Shown piece after piece: positions 15,902 to 47,102 of a DNA stretch of 64,000 nt. The position numbers and the translations under genes are program-made. A model generated the notes under the pieces. The model searched no databases and was not told the DNA's origin. It saw only the letters and a list, made by a program, of their open reading frames with translations. This stretch comes from an uncultured Spirochaetaceae bacterium (GTDB lineage Bacteria; Spirochaetota; Spirochaetia; Sphaerochaetales; Sphaerochaetaceae), in the NCBI GenBank assembly GCA_944389105.1, contig CALXLD010000022.1, forward strand, positions 124,001 to 188,000, given 5' to 3'. Numbering within the stretch: the stretch's first letter is position 1; the number at the start of each line of letters is the position of its first letter.

Positions 15902-15984
15902 GGTTATATTAACCATCTAAAGGTCAAATAAACCATAATTAGTGTACATGATTCCAATAATAAGGAGTTGGCACAGCTATTGCA
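15902..15984 (+). promoter_or_regulatory. Psp promoter 1: two PspF-type sites and a sigma-54 promoter
   Basis: GGTTATATTAACC (15902-15914) and GGTCAAATAAACC (15922-15934) are 13-bp inverted repeats spaced exactly 20 bp. The sigma-54 core TTGGCAC (15968-15974) and TTGCA (15980-15984) has GG and GC 12 bases apart, as required, predicting a start near 15995. The same layout recurs at 17951-18034. pspF lies between the two operons, so PspF is the obvious activator. Confidence 0.85.
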
Positions 15985-16009
15985 TATGGTGAGCAAGGAG
16001 AAAATAGAT

Positions 16010-16657
16010 ATGAACGCATTTAAAAGACTTGGAGATATAATCTCATCCAACATCAACTCAGCACTGGATAAGGCAGAGGATCCGGAAAAGATGATAGATC
16101 TCTCGATCAAGAAGCTCGAGGATTCCAGATGCGATATCAGAGCAGCGATTGCGGAGAAAAGCGCGGAGAAAAGCGCATATGAGAAGAAACTGGAGGGCGA
16201 ACGTGAGGCAATAGCAAGATGGACCGAGAGAGCCCGGCTTGCGGTGGGGAAAGGCCGTGACGACATGGCACGCGAGGCCATTGCCGCAAAACAGGATCTT
16301 GAAAAGAGTGCCAAAGATGATCAGAACCTCATATCCTCGCTTGGCAATGTACTTATTTCCCTGAATGAAACCTTGTCGAAAATCGAGGAAAAGCTTTCCG
16401 AGATGAAGGCAAAGTCAGCAGAACTCAAAGCACGGGCAAGGAGCGCAAAGGAGAGAATAAAGGCAAATGAAGCTATGGCGAAAAGCTCAGATGCACAGTG
16501 GCTCAGGAAGATCGAGGAGCTGAATTCCAGAATCGAGAGATGGGAAGCCGAAGCAAATATAACAGCACCAGCTGAAAACAAGACCATGACTTTCGAGGAG
16601 ATGGAGAAGGAAGAAGCTATCGAAGCCGAACTCAGGAGAATCAAGGAAAATGCGTGA
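16010..16657 (+). CDS. pspA: PspA/IM30-family membrane-stress protein (first copy)
   Basis: About 215 residues, almost all charged amphipathic helix. The start NAFKRLGDIISSNINSALDK is the PspA N-terminal amphipathic helix followed by DKAEDPEKM, the family hallmark; long coiled coils continue to about residue 180. PspA binds stressed inner membrane as ESCRT-III-like rods and restrains PspF. AAGGAG stands before the 16010 ATG; the longer frame from 15968 would begin inside the promoter. Co-transcribed with pspC (8-base overlap) from the sigma-54 promoter. Confidence 0.93.
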   Translation: MNAFKRLGDIISSNINSALDKAEDPEKMIDLSIKKLEDSRCDIRAAIAEKSAEKSAYEKKLEGEREAIARWTERARLAVGKGRDDMAREAIAAKQDLEKSAKDDQNLISSLGNVLISLNETLSKIEEKLSEMKAKSAELKARARSAKERIKANEAMAKSSDAQWLRKIEELNSRIERWEAEANITAPAENKTMTFEEMEKEEAIEAELRRIKENA

Positions 16658-16856
16658 TTACGAATACAGAAAGAAACTTCAGAGAGTTCCGAACGGCATA
16701 ATCTTCGGAGTTGCAGAAGGAATTGCCAGGTATCTGTCAATGCCTGTGTGGGTTGTCAGAGCACTCTGGATTCTTGCAGCAATCGTGACAGGTTTCTTTC
16801 CAGCAGCTGTCCTATACCTCATTCTTGCCATCGCGCTTCCTGCAGGACCAGCATAA
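16650..16856 (+). CDS. pspC: PspC-domain membrane protein (short form)
   Basis: A 68-residue protein that is essentially one PspC domain: basic start, VPNGIIFGVAEGIARYL, then two hydrophobic segments around VVRALWILAAIVTGFFP. PspC proteins sense or relay inner-membrane stress to PspA. It overlaps the pspA end by 8 bases. This two-gene operon lacks the PspB-like and DUF4097 genes of the second Psp operon. Confidence 0.9.
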   Translation: MRDYEYRKKLQRVPNGIIFGVAEGIARYLSMPVWVVRALWILAAIVTGFFPAAVLYLILAIALPAGPA

Positions 16857-16887
16857 GGAAAGACAAGCGATAGTTCTGTTTTACGGA

Positions 16888-16916
16888 CAAAGCAGGGTTC
16901 AAGCCCTGCTCTGTTC
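16888..16916. terminator. Hairpin between convergent psp operon 1 and pspF
   Basis: AGCAGGG (16891-16897) pairs with CCCTGCT (16904-16910), with flanking ACA/TGT able to extend the stem past a bulge. There is no good T run on either strand, so it is a weak terminator candidate. Confidence 0.4.
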
Positions 16917-16952
16917 ATAAGCATGGAATATCTATGGCAAACAGCATATCAG

Positions 16953-17948
16953 CTACTCTTTCTGCAGGATCCTGTCCTTAAGCTTTCTGTAAACCCCTCT
17001 GAACTGATCATAGGTTATACCAAGCTTTTCAGAAGCTTTTTTCTGATTTCCCCCGCTCTCCTGCAATGCTTTCCTGAAAAATTCAACATCTATATCATCA
17101 TGGATCTCCGGATAATCAGAAAGAGAATAAGAATCGGAAAGAGCTTCTTCTTTTTCTACAGACGGCGCGGAAGAAAAAGGATTCTGAAAAGGGTTGAAAT
17201 CTATATCCGAGATTTCCTGTGTCCGGCTTCTGTAAACCGCTCTCTCAACTGTATTCTTGAGCTCCCTAATATTTCCCGGCCATGAATAGCTAAGCAGGAG
17301 ATTCTCTGCCTCCGGAGAGAAATACGGGACATCATCCAACCCGCATTCCGTAGCCATTCTCGTGCTGAAATGATTCGCAAGCAGCATTATATCATTTCCG
17401 CGCACACGGAGAGGAGGAACAAAAAGGACTTCGAAGGAGAGGCGATCAAGAAGGTCCTCCTTGAATTTCCCCTCCCTAGCCAGCTTCTTAAGGTCAGCAT
17501 TGGTTGCAGAAACAATCCTTACATCAATATGCCTTGTCTCGGACGATCCGACCCTCTCGAATGTACCATACTCCACAGTTCTCAGGATTTTCTCCTGAAC
17601 AGAAAGCGGAACAAGCCCTATCTCATCCAGGAAGAGAGTACCTCCCTCGGCCTCTTCAAATCGACCTTTCCTTGTCCCCCGGGCGCCCGTGAACGCTCCG
17701 CTTTCATAGCCGAATAATTCGGTTTCTATCAGTGTTTCAGGCAAAGAAGCAAGATTTACTGTGACAAGAGGCCCCTGCCACCTCTTCGAAAGGAAATGCA
17801 GTCTTCTGGCAGCAAGCTCTTTCCCGCTGCCGCGTTCTCCGACAAGGATTACCGGCCGATCGACTTTCGCAGCTCTGGAAACAGCTTCTATGAAGTCGAG
17901 GTACACCTCGCTCTCACCTATTCCTTCCCTTATATTCTCTCTTCCCAT
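16953..17948 (-). CDS. pspF: PspF-like sigma-54 activator
   Basis: A 331-residue AAA+ activator with no N-terminal sensor domain, as in PspF. GERGSGKE (about 37-44) is Walker A, ELFGYESGAFTGA (about 77-89) carries the GAFTGA loop that contacts sigma-54, GTLFLDEIG is Walker B, and the C-terminus (GNQKKASEKLGITYDQFRGV) is a Fis-type helix-turn-helix. It should be held inactive by PspA and released on membrane stress. Its ATG is only 3 bases from the inner binding site at 17951 and lacks a ribosome binding site, which suggests autoregulation and possibly a leaderless message. Transcribed towards psp operon 1 and divergent from operon 2. Confidence 0.93.
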   Translation of the reverse strand: MGRENIREGIGESEVYLDFIEAVSRAAKVDRPVILVGERGSGKELAARRLHFLSKRWQGPLVTVNLASLPETLIETELFGYESGAFTGARGTRKGRFEEAEGGTLFLDEIGLVPLSVQEKILRTVEYGTFERVGSSETRHIDVRIVSATNADLKKLAREGKFKEDLLDRLSFEVLFVPPLRVRGNDIMLLANHFSTRMATECGLDDVPYFSPEAENLLLSYSWPGNIRELKNTVERAVYRSRTQEISDIDFNPFQNPFSSAPSVEKEEALSDSYSLSDYPEIHDDIDVEFFRKALQESGGNQKKASEKLGITYDQFRGVYRKLKDRILQKE

Positions 17949-17950
17949 AT

Positions 17951-18034
17951 GGTTAAATATACCATAATAAGGTTATAAGAACCAATTATTACAAGCAGGG
18001 ATGGTATGATATAGCAATTGGCATAGCTCTTGCA
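17951..18034 (+). promoter_or_regulatory. Psp promoter 2: two PspF-type sites and a sigma-54 promoter, overlapping the pspF 5' end
   Basis: GGTTAAATATACC (17951-17963) and GGTTATAAGAACC (17971-17983) are again exactly 20 bp apart. TTGGCAT (18018-18024) and TTGCA (18030-18034) form the sigma-54 core with correct GG-GC spacing. Distances match promoter 1 within a base. The first site abuts the pspF start codon. Confidence 0.85.
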
Positions 18035-18055
18035 TAGAATGTAACAGGAGCACAT

Positions 18056-18685
18056 ATGAATATATTCTCTCGATTCATCGATATCATAAACGCAAACATG
18101 AATGCCATCCTGGACAAAGCAGAAGATCCCGAGAAGATGCTGCGCATGATGATCCAGGAAATGGAAGACACCCTTATTGAGCTCAAGAGCTCCTGTGCTG
18201 CCTCAATGGCAGAAGGGGCAAAGCTTGAAAGGAACAGAAAAGAAGCCGAAGAAGCTGAAGAGCGATGGGAAAAACGTGCGGTTCTCGCTGTTTCAAAGGG
18301 AAAGGACGACCTTGCAAGAGAAGCCCTTTCCGAGAAAATCTCAGCAAGGAAGGAGGCAGAACGCCTGAAAAAGCTTCTCGAGGAAAATAAAAGCACAATA
18401 AGCGAAGCCAGGAAGGACATTGCCGCGCTTGAAGAGAAGCTCTCGGAGTCAAAATCACGTTTCCGGATCCTCAAGGAAAAGGAAGAAAGAGCAAAGAATG
18501 AGAGGAAAGCCCGCGAATCCATTAAAAAGGATACAGAGGCCCGATTCAGGGACATGGAAGAAAAACTTGACAGGATGAATGCTTTTTCAGATCTCAGCCG
18601 GTCCCAGAGGTTTGAGGAAATGGAAAAATCAGACGAGATAGAGAAGGAGCTTGAAGAGCTCAGGAAAAAGGCGGGAATGAAATGA
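18056..18685 (+). CDS. PspA/IM30-family protein (second copy)
   Basis: A 209-residue paralogue of the protein at 16010, with the same start logic (IFSRFIDIINANMNAILDKA, then EDPEKMLRMMIQEMED) and coiled coils throughout. AGGAG precedes the ATG by 6 bases. First gene of a four-gene operon under sigma-54 promoter 2. Two PspA copies under the same activator suggest divided roles, for example regulator and membrane effector; which is which cannot be told from sequence. Confidence 0.92.
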   Translation: MNIFSRFIDIINANMNAILDKAEDPEKMLRMMIQEMEDTLIELKSSCAASMAEGAKLERNRKEAEEAEERWEKRAVLAVSKGKDDLAREALSEKISARKEAERLKKLLEENKSTISEARKDIAALEEKLSESKSRFRILKEKEERAKNERKARESIKKDTEARFRDMEEKLDRMNAFSDLSRSQRFEEMEKSDEIEKELEELRKKAGMK

Positions 18686-18954
18686 CAGCTGTAGCAATCG
18701 TGGGCATTGTCTTCACTTTCGTAACAATCATATCCATAGTCGGGATCTTCAAGGAAAGCCAGGACAAAAGGGAAAAGCTGAAAATCAAGACAGAGGCCGC
18801 ACTGCGCATGATGGAGATGGAAAAGGGAATAAAGCCCGGAACATACTCTGAATGGAATACGAGGAAAGAGGATCCTGAGTTCAGGAAAGCAATGGATAAT
18901 CTGAAGCAGAGAGTTGAAAACCTTGATACAATCCTGAAGGGGGAAGGAAAATGA
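18682..18954 (+). CDS. PspB-like single-span membrane protein
   Basis: A 90-residue protein: an N-terminal transmembrane helix (VAIVGIVFTFVTIISIVGIF), then a charged helical region and a C-terminal coiled coil (KAMDNLKQRVENLDTILKG). Topology and position between pspA and pspC match PspB, which works with PspC, but the sequence is too short for a firm family call. ATGA overlap with the preceding pspA. Confidence 0.7.
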   Translation: MTAVAIVGIVFTFVTIISIVGIFKESQDKREKLKIKTEAALRMMEMEKGIKPGTYSEWNTRKEDPEFRKAMDNLKQRVENLDTILKGEGK

Positions 18955-19316
18955 GAACAGCAAGATGGACACGTTCGCCGAGGGGCGTTGTTTTCGGGGT
19001 TGTGACAGGACTTGCCGAATGGAGGGACCTCAACCCATCGATGACGCGGCTTATCGTTCTTCTTATTATTCTTTTCACCGGAATATTCCCCGGTGTCGCC
19101 ATTTATCTTGCCCTTGCTCTCATTCTTCCAATACAGACGGAAAATGATATAATCAAGGAGCATCATAAGGACGATCCGATAGACGTAAGCTACGAAGAAG
19201 CCGATGATGACCTGAAAAGAGAGTACGAGGATCTCAAGCGCAAGGTCGAAGAAATGGAAGGACGTGTCTACGACAAAGAAAAAGACTGGGACGAGAGATT
19301 CAGGAAAGGAGAATGA
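18951..19316 (+). CDS. pspC: PspC-domain protein with C-terminal coiled coil
   Basis: A 121-residue protein. Residues 1-62 are a PspC domain (SPRGVVFGVVTGLAEW, then two membrane segments around LIVLLIILFTGIFPG). From about residue 85 an acidic/basic coiled coil follows (YEDLKRKVEEMEGRVYDKEK), absent from the short PspC at 16650, that could contact PspA or the PspB-like partner. It overlaps its neighbours by 4 bases on each side. Confidence 0.9.
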   Translation: MRTARWTRSPRGVVFGVVTGLAEWRDLNPSMTRLIVLLIILFTGIFPGVAIYLALALILPIQTENDIIKEHHKDDPIDVSYEEADDDLKREYEDLKRKVEEMEGRVYDKEKDWDERFRKGE

Positions 19317-44364: not shown

Positions 44365-45447
44365 ATGTTAGATGAGAAGATTATCAGGAAAGCCCCAAAG
44401 GTTGAGCTGCATGAGCATCTGGATGGATCACTGCGGCCGGAAACTGTCATCGCCCTAGCAGAGAAGAAAGGCATGAGCCTGCCATGTTTCACCCCGGAAG
44501 AGATCGCAGCATGGTTCTCTAAAGGATCTGATGAGAAATCCCTGAGCCTCTATCTGAAATCATTTGAGGTCACAACAGCTCTGATGCAGGACAGGGACAG
44601 CCTGAAAAGAATAGCAAGAGAGGAAATCGAGGACCTTGCTGCTGACGGGGTTGTGTATGCTGAAATAAGATTTGCCCCGGTACTCCATACAAAAGAAGGT
44701 CTTTCCATGGAAGATGTCGTCTCTTCCGTGATAGAAGGACTTCAGGAAGGAAGGAAAAGCACCGGGGTCGAATTCGGCCTTATTCTATCCGCAATGAGAG
44801 ATCAGAGCGCCGAGATCTCACTGAAGACAGCAGAGCTTGCTGTCGCATTCTCGGATCGTGGAGTTGTCGGATTCGATCTTGCTGGAGATGAATCCGGCAA
44901 TCCTGCCAAAAAGCATATAAAAGCATTCGAGTTCATCAGAGCGCAGAACTTCAACATAACAATACACGCAGGAGAAGCCTTCGGACTGGAATCAATCTGG
45001 CAGGCTATACAGATATGCGGTGCACACAGGATAGGACATGGGACAAGGCTTACGGATGACATGACCATCGAAAACGGGAAAATAAGAAAGATGGGAACAC
45101 TTGCCCATTTTGTCCTTGATAAAAGAATCCCTCTTGAAATGTGCCTGACAAGCAATGTAGGAACAGGGGCTGCAGAAAGCTATGAAACCCACCCCTTCCC
45201 TCTTTTCTTCAGGAACAATTTCAGGGTTTTCCTATCTACTGACAACAGACTGATGAGCAATACATCCCTGACAAAGGAATTCTATATTGCCGCGGAAAAA
45301 TACAGCCTTGATATCCATGATATCGAAAAGATAACCCTGAATGCGATGAAGAGCGCATTCATACACCATGAGAAAAGGCTCAGGCTGATCTACGATGTCA
45401 TCAAGAAAGGCTATGCAGAACTCAGAGAGGAGTACGGGCTTTCATGA
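44365..45447 (+). CDS. add: Adenosine deaminase
   Basis: A 360-residue zinc hydrolase of purine salvage, converting adenosine to inosine. VELHEHLDGSLRPET (zinc HxH, about 13-27), TIHAGEAFG (about 199-207), IGHGTRL and LSTDNRLMSNTSLTKEF (about 290-306) are the deaminase motifs. In the last block Asn-Arg replaces the common Asp-Pro (usually TDDP), so adenine or a related substrate is possible. Convergent with the rhomboid gene, overlapping it by 6 bases. Confidence 0.9.
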   Translation: MLDEKIIRKAPKVELHEHLDGSLRPETVIALAEKKGMSLPCFTPEEIAAWFSKGSDEKSLSLYLKSFEVTTALMQDRDSLKRIAREEIEDLAADGVVYAEIRFAPVLHTKEGLSMEDVVSSVIEGLQEGRKSTGVEFGLILSAMRDQSAEISLKTAELAVAFSDRGVVGFDLAGDESGNPAKKHIKAFEFIRAQNFNITIHAGEAFGLESIWQAIQICGAHRIGHGTRLTDDMTIENGKIRKMGTLAHFVLDKRIPLEMCLTSNVGTGAAESYETHPFPLFFRNNFRVFLSTDNRLMSNTSLTKEFYIAAEKYSLDIHDIEKITLNAMKSAFIHHEKRLRLIYDVIKKGYAELREEYGLS

Positions 45448-46068
45448 AAACCATACTCTCCAGGGTTTTATCCTCAGTCTGATAACACAATAGAGGAGAG
45501 CAAAAACAAGGCCGAAAAGATGAGTCATATGGGCTATGCCACCACCATATGAATTCATCTGGCTGAAAAGCTCAATGAAGAAATATCCGAGAACGAGTAT
45601 AGGCGCCCTGACTGGAAAGACTCCGAAAAGATACACCACTGCCCGTGGATAGATGACGGAGAAAAGAAGCATCACTGCATAAAGGGCACCAGATGCCCCA
45701 AGCAGTATTGCATTGGTTCCAGTGAAGATATAGAAAAAAAAGCTTGCAATTCCAGACAGTATGCCAGTCAGGAAATAGAAAAGAAGGAATTCCCGTGTAC
45801 CCACTGCCCTTTCCACGGCAGTACCGAAGATGAACAAGCCAAGCATGTTCGAGAACAAGTGCCAGAATCCGGAATGAGTGAACATATACGTGACAAACTG
45901 CCAGTAGCTGTGTCCATATATAATCGCGGAAGGAATCAGGGCAAAATAATATGTAATAGCAGGATACAACAAATACGCAACAAGAAAGACAATACAGTTG
46001 GCAACAATCAGCATTGTTGCAGAATTTGAGTAAGTATACCGGAACTTTCTATTGATTATGCTGTTCAT
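45442..46068 (-). CDS. Rhomboid-family intramembrane serine protease
   Basis: A 208-residue protein with six membrane segments. HLFSNMLGLFIFG (about 66-78), the nucleophile in LLGASGALYAV (about 126-136, GxSG) and GGGIAHMTHLFGLVF with the catalytic His (about 176-190) are the rhomboid motifs. The promoter TTGACC, 17 bases, TAATTT ends six bases before the ATG without a ribosome binding site, predicting a leaderless message. Substrates unknown. Confidence 0.93.
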   Translation of the reverse strand: MNSIINRKFRYTYSNSATMLIVANCIVFLVAYLLYPAITYYFALIPSAIIYGHSYWQFVTYMFTHSGFWHLFSNMLGLFIFGTAVERAVGTREFLLFYFLTGILSGIASFFFYIFTGTNAILLGASGALYAVMLLFSVIYPRAVVYLFGVFPVRAPILVLGYFFIELFSQMNSYGGGIAHMTHLFGLVFALLYCVIRLRIKPWRVWFS

Positions 46069-46134
46069 TATCGGAAATTAAGCAAATTATCAGCAAAGGT
46101 CAACAGCCCTGAAAGTGGAAGATTTTTCACAGTA

Positions 46135-46151
46135 TGTGCAATATTTTCACA
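46135..46151 (+). promoter_or_regulatory. Candidate activator site upstream of the first sigma-54 small RNA
   Basis: TGTGCAATATTTTCACA is a 17-bp near-palindrome (TGTGmAA-TAT-TTkCACA, one mismatch) centred about 84 bases before the predicted start at 46227, the normal position for a sigma-54 activator site. It differs from the GGTTA-type PspF sites, so another activator is implied. Confidence 0.35.
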
Positions 46152-46199
46152 CTAATAAATGCCAGAATATTAAATAGATTCCTCTAATGTAATGAAAAG

Positions 46200-46217
46200 T
46201 TGGCACGAATCCTGCAA
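46200..46217 (+). promoter_or_regulatory. Sigma-54 promoter of small RNA 1
   Basis: TTGGCACG (46200-46207) with TGCAA at 46213-46217; GG (46202-46203) and GC (46214-46215) are exactly 12 bases apart. Only one position departs from the consensus TGGCACG-N4-TTGC. Confidence 0.85.
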
Positions 46218-46226
46218 GGAAACTGT

Positions 46227-46303
46227 AGAGCAAACAGTTTTTTCAACAAACCTCCTTTTTAGTGTGTACAAAGACGTCACTTTTTGACGTCTTTGTCTTT
46301 TTC
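46227..46303 (+). ncRNA. Sigma-54-dependent small RNA 1
   Basis: About 77 bases from the predicted start to the end of a T run. The 5' segment has GAGCAAACAGTTTTTT (46228-46243) and CAAACCTCCTTTTT (46247-46260). The terminator ACAAAGACGTCA/TGACGTCTTTGT (46268-46279, 46285-46296) is a perfect 12-bp stem followed by CTTTTT. No open reading frame with a ribosome binding site is present. ACCTCCTTT is the complement of AAAGGAGGT, so pairing with ribosome binding sites is the obvious mode of action. A sister unit follows at 46359. Confidence 0.75.
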
Positions 46304-46331
46304 TCAATATTTTTTCTTAGTTTTGTCTGTT

Positions 46332-46349
46332 TTGGCATGAGAAATGCAA
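46332..46349 (+). promoter_or_regulatory. Sigma-54 promoter of small RNA 2
   Basis: TTGGCATG (46332-46339) with TGCAA at 46345-46349; GG (46334-46335) and GC (46346-46347) are 12 bases apart. It lies right after the terminator of small RNA 1. Confidence 0.8.
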
Positions 46350-46358
46350 CAAAATTAA

Positions 46359-46455
46359 TACAGAGCAACAGTTTTTCATACCTCCTTTGCAACGTGTGAA
46401 AAAACTAACGTCGGACAGCTCTCTCCCACCCCATATGCTGTCCGACGGTTTTTTT
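46359..46455 (+). ncRNA. Sigma-54-dependent small RNA 2 (paralogue of small RNA 1)
   Basis: About 97 bases. The 5' part repeats small RNA 1: GAGCAACAGTTTTT (from 46363), TACCTCCTTT (46379-46388) and a GTGTG after it. The terminator CGTCGGACAGC/GCTGTCCGACG (46409-46419, 46437-46447) is a perfect 11-bp stem, here with a 17-base pyrimidine-rich loop (CTCTCCCACCCC) that could be a second seed, then seven Ts. The body diverges from small RNA 1 while the 5' seed and promoter type are kept, as expected for a duplicated regulatory RNA. Confidence 0.75.
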
Positions 46456-46464
46456 CTGACTTAT

Positions 46465-46499
46465 TTGACCAAGTTCGAAGCTATGTATAGACTCTCGCT
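46465..46499 (+). promoter_or_regulatory. rlmE promoter, leaderless type
   Basis: TTGACC (46465-46470), 17 bases, TAGACT (46488-46493), six bases, ATG at 46500. No ribosome binding site. Confidence 0.75.
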
Positions 46500-47102
46500 A
46501 TGGCCAATTCACGAAGAGACAAAGCAGATTCCTACACACAGAGAGCGCACAGGGAAGGATATCCGGCAAGATCCGTCTATAAGCTTGAAGAAATCAATGC
46601 GGCACACAAACTGATAAAACCCGGCGATTCCGTCCTTGATGTGGGAGCAGCCCCGGGATCATGGACGCTTTATACTCATAGGGAACTTATAAAAGGAAAA
46701 GGGCGGATTGTCTCTGTCGATCTCAACCCGCTCTCTCTCGACCCGATACCGCCTACAGTAACGGAATTCACAGGTGATGCATTCTCAAAGGAAATAAGGG
46801 CCAGACTCGTTGAGGAAGGACCGTATGATGCGATAATCTCCGATGCCGCTCCTATGACGACTGGAAACAGGATTGTCGATACCACCCGCTCAGAGTACCT
46901 TGCAGAGCAGGTTGTGCTCCTTGCACAGGAGCAGCTTAAAATACATGGGAACATGGTCATCAAGATCTTCCAGGGAGGAGGAGAACAGGAAGTTCTGAAA
47001 ACGATGAGGACAATCTTCCAGAAAGCAAAGGCTTTCAAACCCAAGGCATCGAGGGATGATTCGTTCGAGATATTCCTCATTGGCCTGGATAAGAAAGCCT
47101 AA
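46500..47102 (+). CDS. rlmE: 23S rRNA (uridine2552-2'-O)-methyltransferase
   Basis: A 200-residue FtsJ-fold enzyme. RSVYKLEEIN (catalytic Lys about 28), SVLDVGAAPGSWTLYT (SAM motif I, about 44-59), AIISDAAPMTTG (Asp about 119) and MVIKIFQGGGE (Lys about 159) give the K-D-K-E arrangement. It methylates the A-loop of 23S rRNA late in 50S assembly. Its -10 hexamer ends six bases before the ATG, giving a leaderless transcript. Convergent with mscS, 2 bases apart. Confidence 0.95.
   Translation: MANSRRDKADSYTQRAHREGYPARSVYKLEEINAAHKLIKPGDSVLDVGAAPGSWTLYTHRELIKGKGRIVSVDLNPLSLDPIPPTVTEFTGDAFSKEIRARLVEEGPYDAIISDAAPMTTGNRIVDTTRSEYLAEQVVLLAQEQLKIHGNMVIKIFQGGGEQEVLKTMRTIFQKAKAFKPKASRDDSFEIFLIGLDKKA

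Follow-up and report, generated by a model that had tools for sequence, protein, structure and literature searches.

The 2.13-Mb genome of an uncultured gut spirochaete carries, on its contig C22, two tandem units (46200–46456, in the 64-kb stretch of DNA analysed here, called the window) that, judged by their sequences, are genes of a previously undescribed family of small RNAs (sRNAs) present in Sphaerochaetaceae and some related spirochaete families. These RNAs probably act in trans and without Hfq, under the control of a sigma-54 activator, by occluding ribosome-binding sites; each includes a ribosome-binding site in mirror image and would therefore be expected to block the translation start of chosen messages. 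The promoters, enhancer, 5′ block, terminators, conservation and absence of Hfq on which this reading draws are established computationally.

Two tandem units with sigma-54 promoters and intrinsic terminators

The original prediction placed two tandem units here, each with a sigma-54 promoter, a common 5′ block and an intrinsic terminator, and both sequence analysis and folding bear this out. The units lie on the plus strand, with a rhomboid protease gene on the minus strand (45442–46068) as their left flank, and a genome-wide search found only these two copies in the host genome. Promoter 1 (46200–46216; TTGGCACGAATCCTGCA) matches the consensus exactly and is kept in relatives, promoter 2 (46332–46348; TTGGCATGAGAAATGCA), recognised from its sequence, is also conserved, and the GG-N10-GC spacing is exact in both, as had been claimed. 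The pattern TTGGCAN7TGCA has 10 exact occurrences in the 2.13-Mb genome, two of them at this locus, 132 bp apart.

The 5′ block common to both units reads GAGCAA(A)CAGTTTTT..ACCTCCTTT. In unit 1 (46227–46303, about 77 nt), GAGCAAACAGTTTTTTCAACAAACCTCCTTTTTAGTGTGT begins at 46228, and the anti-initiation-region block GAGCAAACAGTTTTTTCAACAAACCTCCTTTT (46228–46259) is near-invariant among Ornithospirochaeta loci; in unit 2 (46359–46456, a predicted length of about 94–98 nt), GAGCAACAGTTTTTCATACCTCCTTTGCAACGTGTG begins at 46363. The start predicted at 46227 falls 1 nt before GAGCAA and that predicted at 46359 falls 4 nt before it; since the GC-to-GAGCAA distance in relatives is mostly 12–18 nt, the unit 2 start may lie 1–4 nt further on. 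The terminators agree with the 11–12 bp stems and T runs that had been expected: unit 1 ends in a 12-bp hairpin (46268–46296), whose stem sequence varies by species with pairing retained, followed by a T run, and unit 2 in a terminator (46409–46456) made of an 11-bp hairpin (46409–46447) and T8, whose stem shows two-sided changes and whose conserved C-rich loop, CTCTCCCACCCC, is unpaired with a probability of 0.99.

RNA folding z-scores of the two units are −2.6 and −5.0, and the CCUCC anti-Shine-Dalgarno (anti-SD) element is predicted to be unpaired with probabilities of 0.73 and 0.82, versus 0.52–0.56 across the whole RNA. In unit 1 the anti-SD element is predicted to be largely single-stranded; in unit 2 it forms the loop CTCCTTTGCAAC of a hairpin (46370–46406) with the stem AGTTTTTCATAC/GTGTGAAAAAACT, and relatives show the same display on other stems. 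This hairpin-loop display, the C-rich motif in the unit 2 terminator loop, the match of the block to a start codon and lysine codons, the paired enhancer upstream and the copy number per genome are all points beyond the original prediction. Its claim that no coding frame fits is upheld: the longest closed ATG/GTG open reading frame is shorter than 10 amino acids in 120 of 127 homologous transcripts, none is preserved, and linker length among homologues changes in single-base steps.

The predicted sRNA family is conserved in Sphaerochaetaceae

A lack of conservation in related genomes had been named beforehand as a finding that would refute tandem paralogous sigma-54 sRNAs with an anti-SD element; promoter, block and terminator proved to be kept across Sphaerochaetaceae, and this family-wide conservation argues for such RNAs. 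Searched at the DNA level, 31 of 60 genomes, all of one genus, contain the locus with promoters, block and terminators preserved. A promoter-blind pattern, consisting of the 5′ block only, was run over 84,980 GTDB species genomes and gave at least 80 loci; among the matches listed, the exact sigma-54 box accompanied 75 of 77 spirochaete units, with a one-base variant in the other two, and none of 17 non-spirochaete matches. By this comparison of sequences, the block and the sigma-54 box are conserved beyond chance.

At E ≤ 0.01, a sequence-only model of promoter and block had matches in 114 of 395 Spirochaetia genomes, 82 within Sphaerochaetaceae, which is most genomes of that family, and 32 outside it, where three other spirochaete families were matched weakly (the majority at E 0.001–0.01). 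The matches in f3, f4 and f17, with E down to 1e-7, are recognisable diverged units with UUUUUCAUACCUCC, lying mostly upstream of rlmE and usually retaining the C-rich terminator loop. Genomes carry one to four tandem units. Across 33 sequences, 9 of 10 terminator stem pairs show two-sided changes that keep the pairing, and the block itself is fixed. Minimum-energy folds place the anti-SD element in a hairpin loop in 27 of 49 units with the C-rich loop (type 2), on stems such as AGUUUUUCAUAC/GUGUGAAAAAACU, GUUUUUCAUGC/GUAUGAAAAAU and UCAUAC/GUGUGA, and leave it mainly single-stranded in type 1 units. In one relative (L028 1212), a unit with a sigma-54 promoter and a C-rich terminator loop has lost the CCUCC anti-SD element and sits beside an intact unit; it is perhaps a diverging copy.

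In Sphaerochaetaceae and in other spirochaete families alike, the unit immediately upstream of rlmE is the C-loop one, as would be expected if the units were a cis-acting leader (attenuator) in which sigma-54 transcripts enter rlmE and the unit 2 terminator sets read-through. We consider this improbable. Up to four units occur in tandem, each with a complete terminator, many units do not adjoin rlmE, and rlmE (46500–47102, plus strand) has its own promoter and a leaderless-type start past the terminator. This sigma-70-like promoter (46465–46493, plus strand; TTGACC-N17-TAGACT) bounds the sRNA locus; its TTGACC/TATAGACT form occurs in most congeners, and the rlmE of the relatives inspected has no Shine-Dalgarno sequence (SD), so the RNAs are not simply an rlmE leader. 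At 46465–46510 of the window, the −35/−10 promoter stands immediately before the rlmE ATG at 46500, which has no SD, and this arrangement recurs in the Sphaerochaetaceae relatives inspected. The gene thus appears leaderless, and should therefore be insensitive to an anti-SD RNA.

A paired enhancer and probable sigma-54 control

About 65 nt upstream of promoter 1 lies the palindrome TGTGMAAWWWTTKCACA, present as two sites 20 bp apart that form a putative activator site: half 1 (GTGGAAGATTTTTCACAG, 46115–46132) and half 2 (TGTGCAATATTTTCACAC, 46135–46152) are the second-best and best matches in the 64-kb window to an enhancer position weight matrix (PWM). This PWM, trained only on loci outside the L002–L031 genus set, in a general collection that may include some congeners, gave 26 of the 30 upstream regions from congeners a score of at least 11, versus 2.2% of shuffles. 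The host genome encodes RpoN to serve the −24/−12 promoters, together with several sigma-54 activators, including NtrC-type ones, as candidate enhancer-binding proteins for the upstream site, which is the outfit of a sigma-54-dependent sRNA. Two NtrC-type activators are widely conserved, in nearly all family genomes examined, and no enhancer-like site was found near either activator gene in the loci examined. With 0–1 mismatches, TGTGMAAWWWTTKCACA occurs only at this locus, at half 2, in its own genome (90.7% complete), which suggests an activator that serves mostly these RNAs, in the way that LuxO serves Qrr.

The parallel with LuxO and Qrr could extend to feedback, in which the RNA chiefly silences the message encoding its own NtrC-type activator. 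Of the 344 gene starts sampled, the one that forms the best unit 1 duplex, at −30.2 kcal/mol, is indeed that of an NtrC-like activator on contig C47 (L220, near 9236, minus strand), and the single occurrence of the enhancer in the genome would suit such a circuit. We nevertheless regard feedback as very unlikely: in 21 congeners, the starts of orthologous activators mostly show pairing that does not exceed that of ordinary SD genes, and one 95% complete genome (G028) has the RNAs with no C47-type activator detected. The pairing is strong in the host genome and is not conserved among congeners, and feedback onto the activator gene was rejected.

PspF was also considered as the controller and is unlikely, because pspA promoters have a different palindrome, GGTTA..TAACC. 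In the window, two sigma-54 promoters at 15968–19100 lead into pspA-like operons, with GGTTA..TAACC palindromes upstream, which flank a pspF-like activator gene (about 17436–17921, minus strand). Elsewhere, a strong sigma-54 promoter, TTGGCACGCATCCTGCA, with GGGTCATTTTGACCC-like sites, stands ahead of a sigma-70-family gene (L034, G000:C14:34346), reminiscent of the Borrelia sigma-54 to RpoS cascade, and an operon for Hsp20, a small heat-shock protein (L040, G000:C33:21612), has a sigma-54 promoter and a similar GGTCA/TGACC palindrome.

Complementarity to translation initiation regions

Read as its reverse complement, the block gives AAAGGAGG-(spacer)-(A/T)TG-AAA-AAA-CTG: an SD, a start codon and Met/Leu-Lys-Lys-Leu. 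Most non-spirochaete block matches, clostridial ones among them, are a ribosome-binding site and lipoprotein-like Met-Lys-Lys start on the opposite strand; being gene starts read backwards, they reveal what the block complements. As family members, the clostridial and other non-spirochaete matches were rejected, being reversed ribosome-binding sites with signal-peptide starts, or chance.

Across the genus, GGAGG..TGAAAAAACTNTT marks about one real gene per genome, largely encoding ABC solute-binding proteins, and no single ortholog was found among these genes. An extended target search for TGAAAAAACTGTTTGCTC at up to three mismatches turned up four further sites, of which only two are at gene starts, and no single conserved target emerged. 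In duplex energy against the 344 gene starts of a 411-kb sample, unit 2 beats 57 of 60 5′-shuffled controls and unit 1 beats 44 of 60. Because these energies are only slightly better than those of the shuffled versions, tuning to gene starts beyond the anti-SD element appears weak, and anti-SD pairing is the main established complementarity; the start-codon register also differs between members. Solute-binding-protein and lipoprotein mRNAs that start Met-Lys-Lys-Leu are candidate targets.

The same complementarity would be read differently if, instead of pairing with mRNA, the RNAs mimicked the 3′ end of 16S rRNA and titrated an rRNA maturation factor that recognises the anti-SD tail. Some members carry UCACCUCCUUU, identical to the typical 16S rRNA tail, and the neighbouring rlmE encodes an rRNA methyltransferase. 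Many others have CAUACCUCC or CAACAAACCUCC, which disrupt the rRNA-like context, and the conserved U-tract and GAGCAACAG are unlike rRNA, making mimicry a most improbable account.

The original prediction also imagined a genome with many leaderless genes. An SD of 4 nt or more precedes 286 of the 344 sampled genes, albeit with start picking that favours SDs, and leaderless genes are accordingly a minority. In a broader scheme, a stress-activated sigma-54 activator would have as its main or only genomic output a set of Hfq-free RNAs copying the anti-SD tail that throttle SD-led translation at large, with leaderless mRNAs such as that of rlmE escaping; we hold this to be unlikely. Hfq was found in none of 61 family genomes, while controls were detected, and together with the anti-SD complementarity this favours Hfq-free occlusion of ribosome-binding sites.

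Discussion

For the trans-acting RNAs that we favour, expression, the identity of the activator, pairing and repression are what we infer, along the following lines. A sigma-54 enhancer-binding protein would occupy the paired palindrome and fire both sigma-54 promoters, the protein probably being a response regulator of the NtrC type. Each RNA would terminate at its own intrinsic terminator. The exposed 5′ block would then base-pair with initiation regions, covering the SD, start codon and first lysine codons, and exclude 30S ribosomes; the C-rich terminator loop of unit 2 may offer a second site for binding G-rich or SD sequences. All of this would proceed independently of Hfq. Sphaerochaetaceae would thereby gain an anti-SD regulator that needs no Hfq and has a clear on-switch, in a family that is open to testing in culturable Sphaerochaeta.

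The literature yielded no description of this RNA family or of sigma-54 small RNAs in spirochaetes, and the Borrelia sigma-54 literature found was centred on rpoS. Neither the window nor the loci of five relatives gave a match to an Rfam sRNA family at threshold. The best sub-threshold match, Pseudomon-1/ErsA (RF01719), reached 26.1 bits where the gathering score is 50, and spans only model positions 34–108 of 116; ErsA resembles the spirochaete RNAs in having a hairpin followed by a terminator with a C-rich loop.

Vibrionaceae Qrr RNAs (PMC10162802) are likewise small RNAs driven by a sigma-54 promoter and an NtrC-type enhancer-binding protein. The Qrr Rfam model was not matched at its gathering score in the window or the five relatives' loci. 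Qrr RNAs use Hfq and have a seed different from that of the spirochaete RNAs. The alpha-proteobacterial NfeR1/AbcR sRNAs (alpha-r14, 'cuckoo'; PMC10746234) share an ultraconserved unpaired anti-SD element on stems of varying sequence; their targets are largely ABC transporters, including the solute-binding-protein class, and NfeR1 is Hfq-independent. They differ in carrying a CCUCCUCCC motif in three hairpins, whereas the spirochaete units have one ACCUCCUUU plus CUCUCCCACCCC, and in their sigma-70 promoter, NtrC being a repressor of NfeR1 (PMC10746234).

Closest in their active region are the Streptococcus csRNAs (PMC3091779), which also occur as several similar copies per genome under one response regulator, each with its own terminator, and which expose an unpaired anti-SD and anti-start-codon sequence in a short conserved tract, in a host without Hfq. 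In the spirochaete RNAs, CCUCC is similarly preceded by CAU or CAA and mainly unpaired, but the unit 2 CAU sits in a stem. The csRNAs belong to an unrelated phylum, are unrelated in sequence and are transcribed from CiaR-activated promoters that have a −10 box rather than from sigma-54 promoters; the CiaR repeat TTTAAG-N5-TTTAAG with its −10 box is absent from the spirochaete promoter, which reads TTGGCA-N7-TGC. Unlike csRNAs, the spirochaete units are often in tandem and have a C-rich terminator loop. The family is apparently another independent invention of RNAs directed against initiation regions, beside the csRNAs and cuckoo RNAs, with a csRNA-like business end and Qrr-like transcription, and is a member of neither group.
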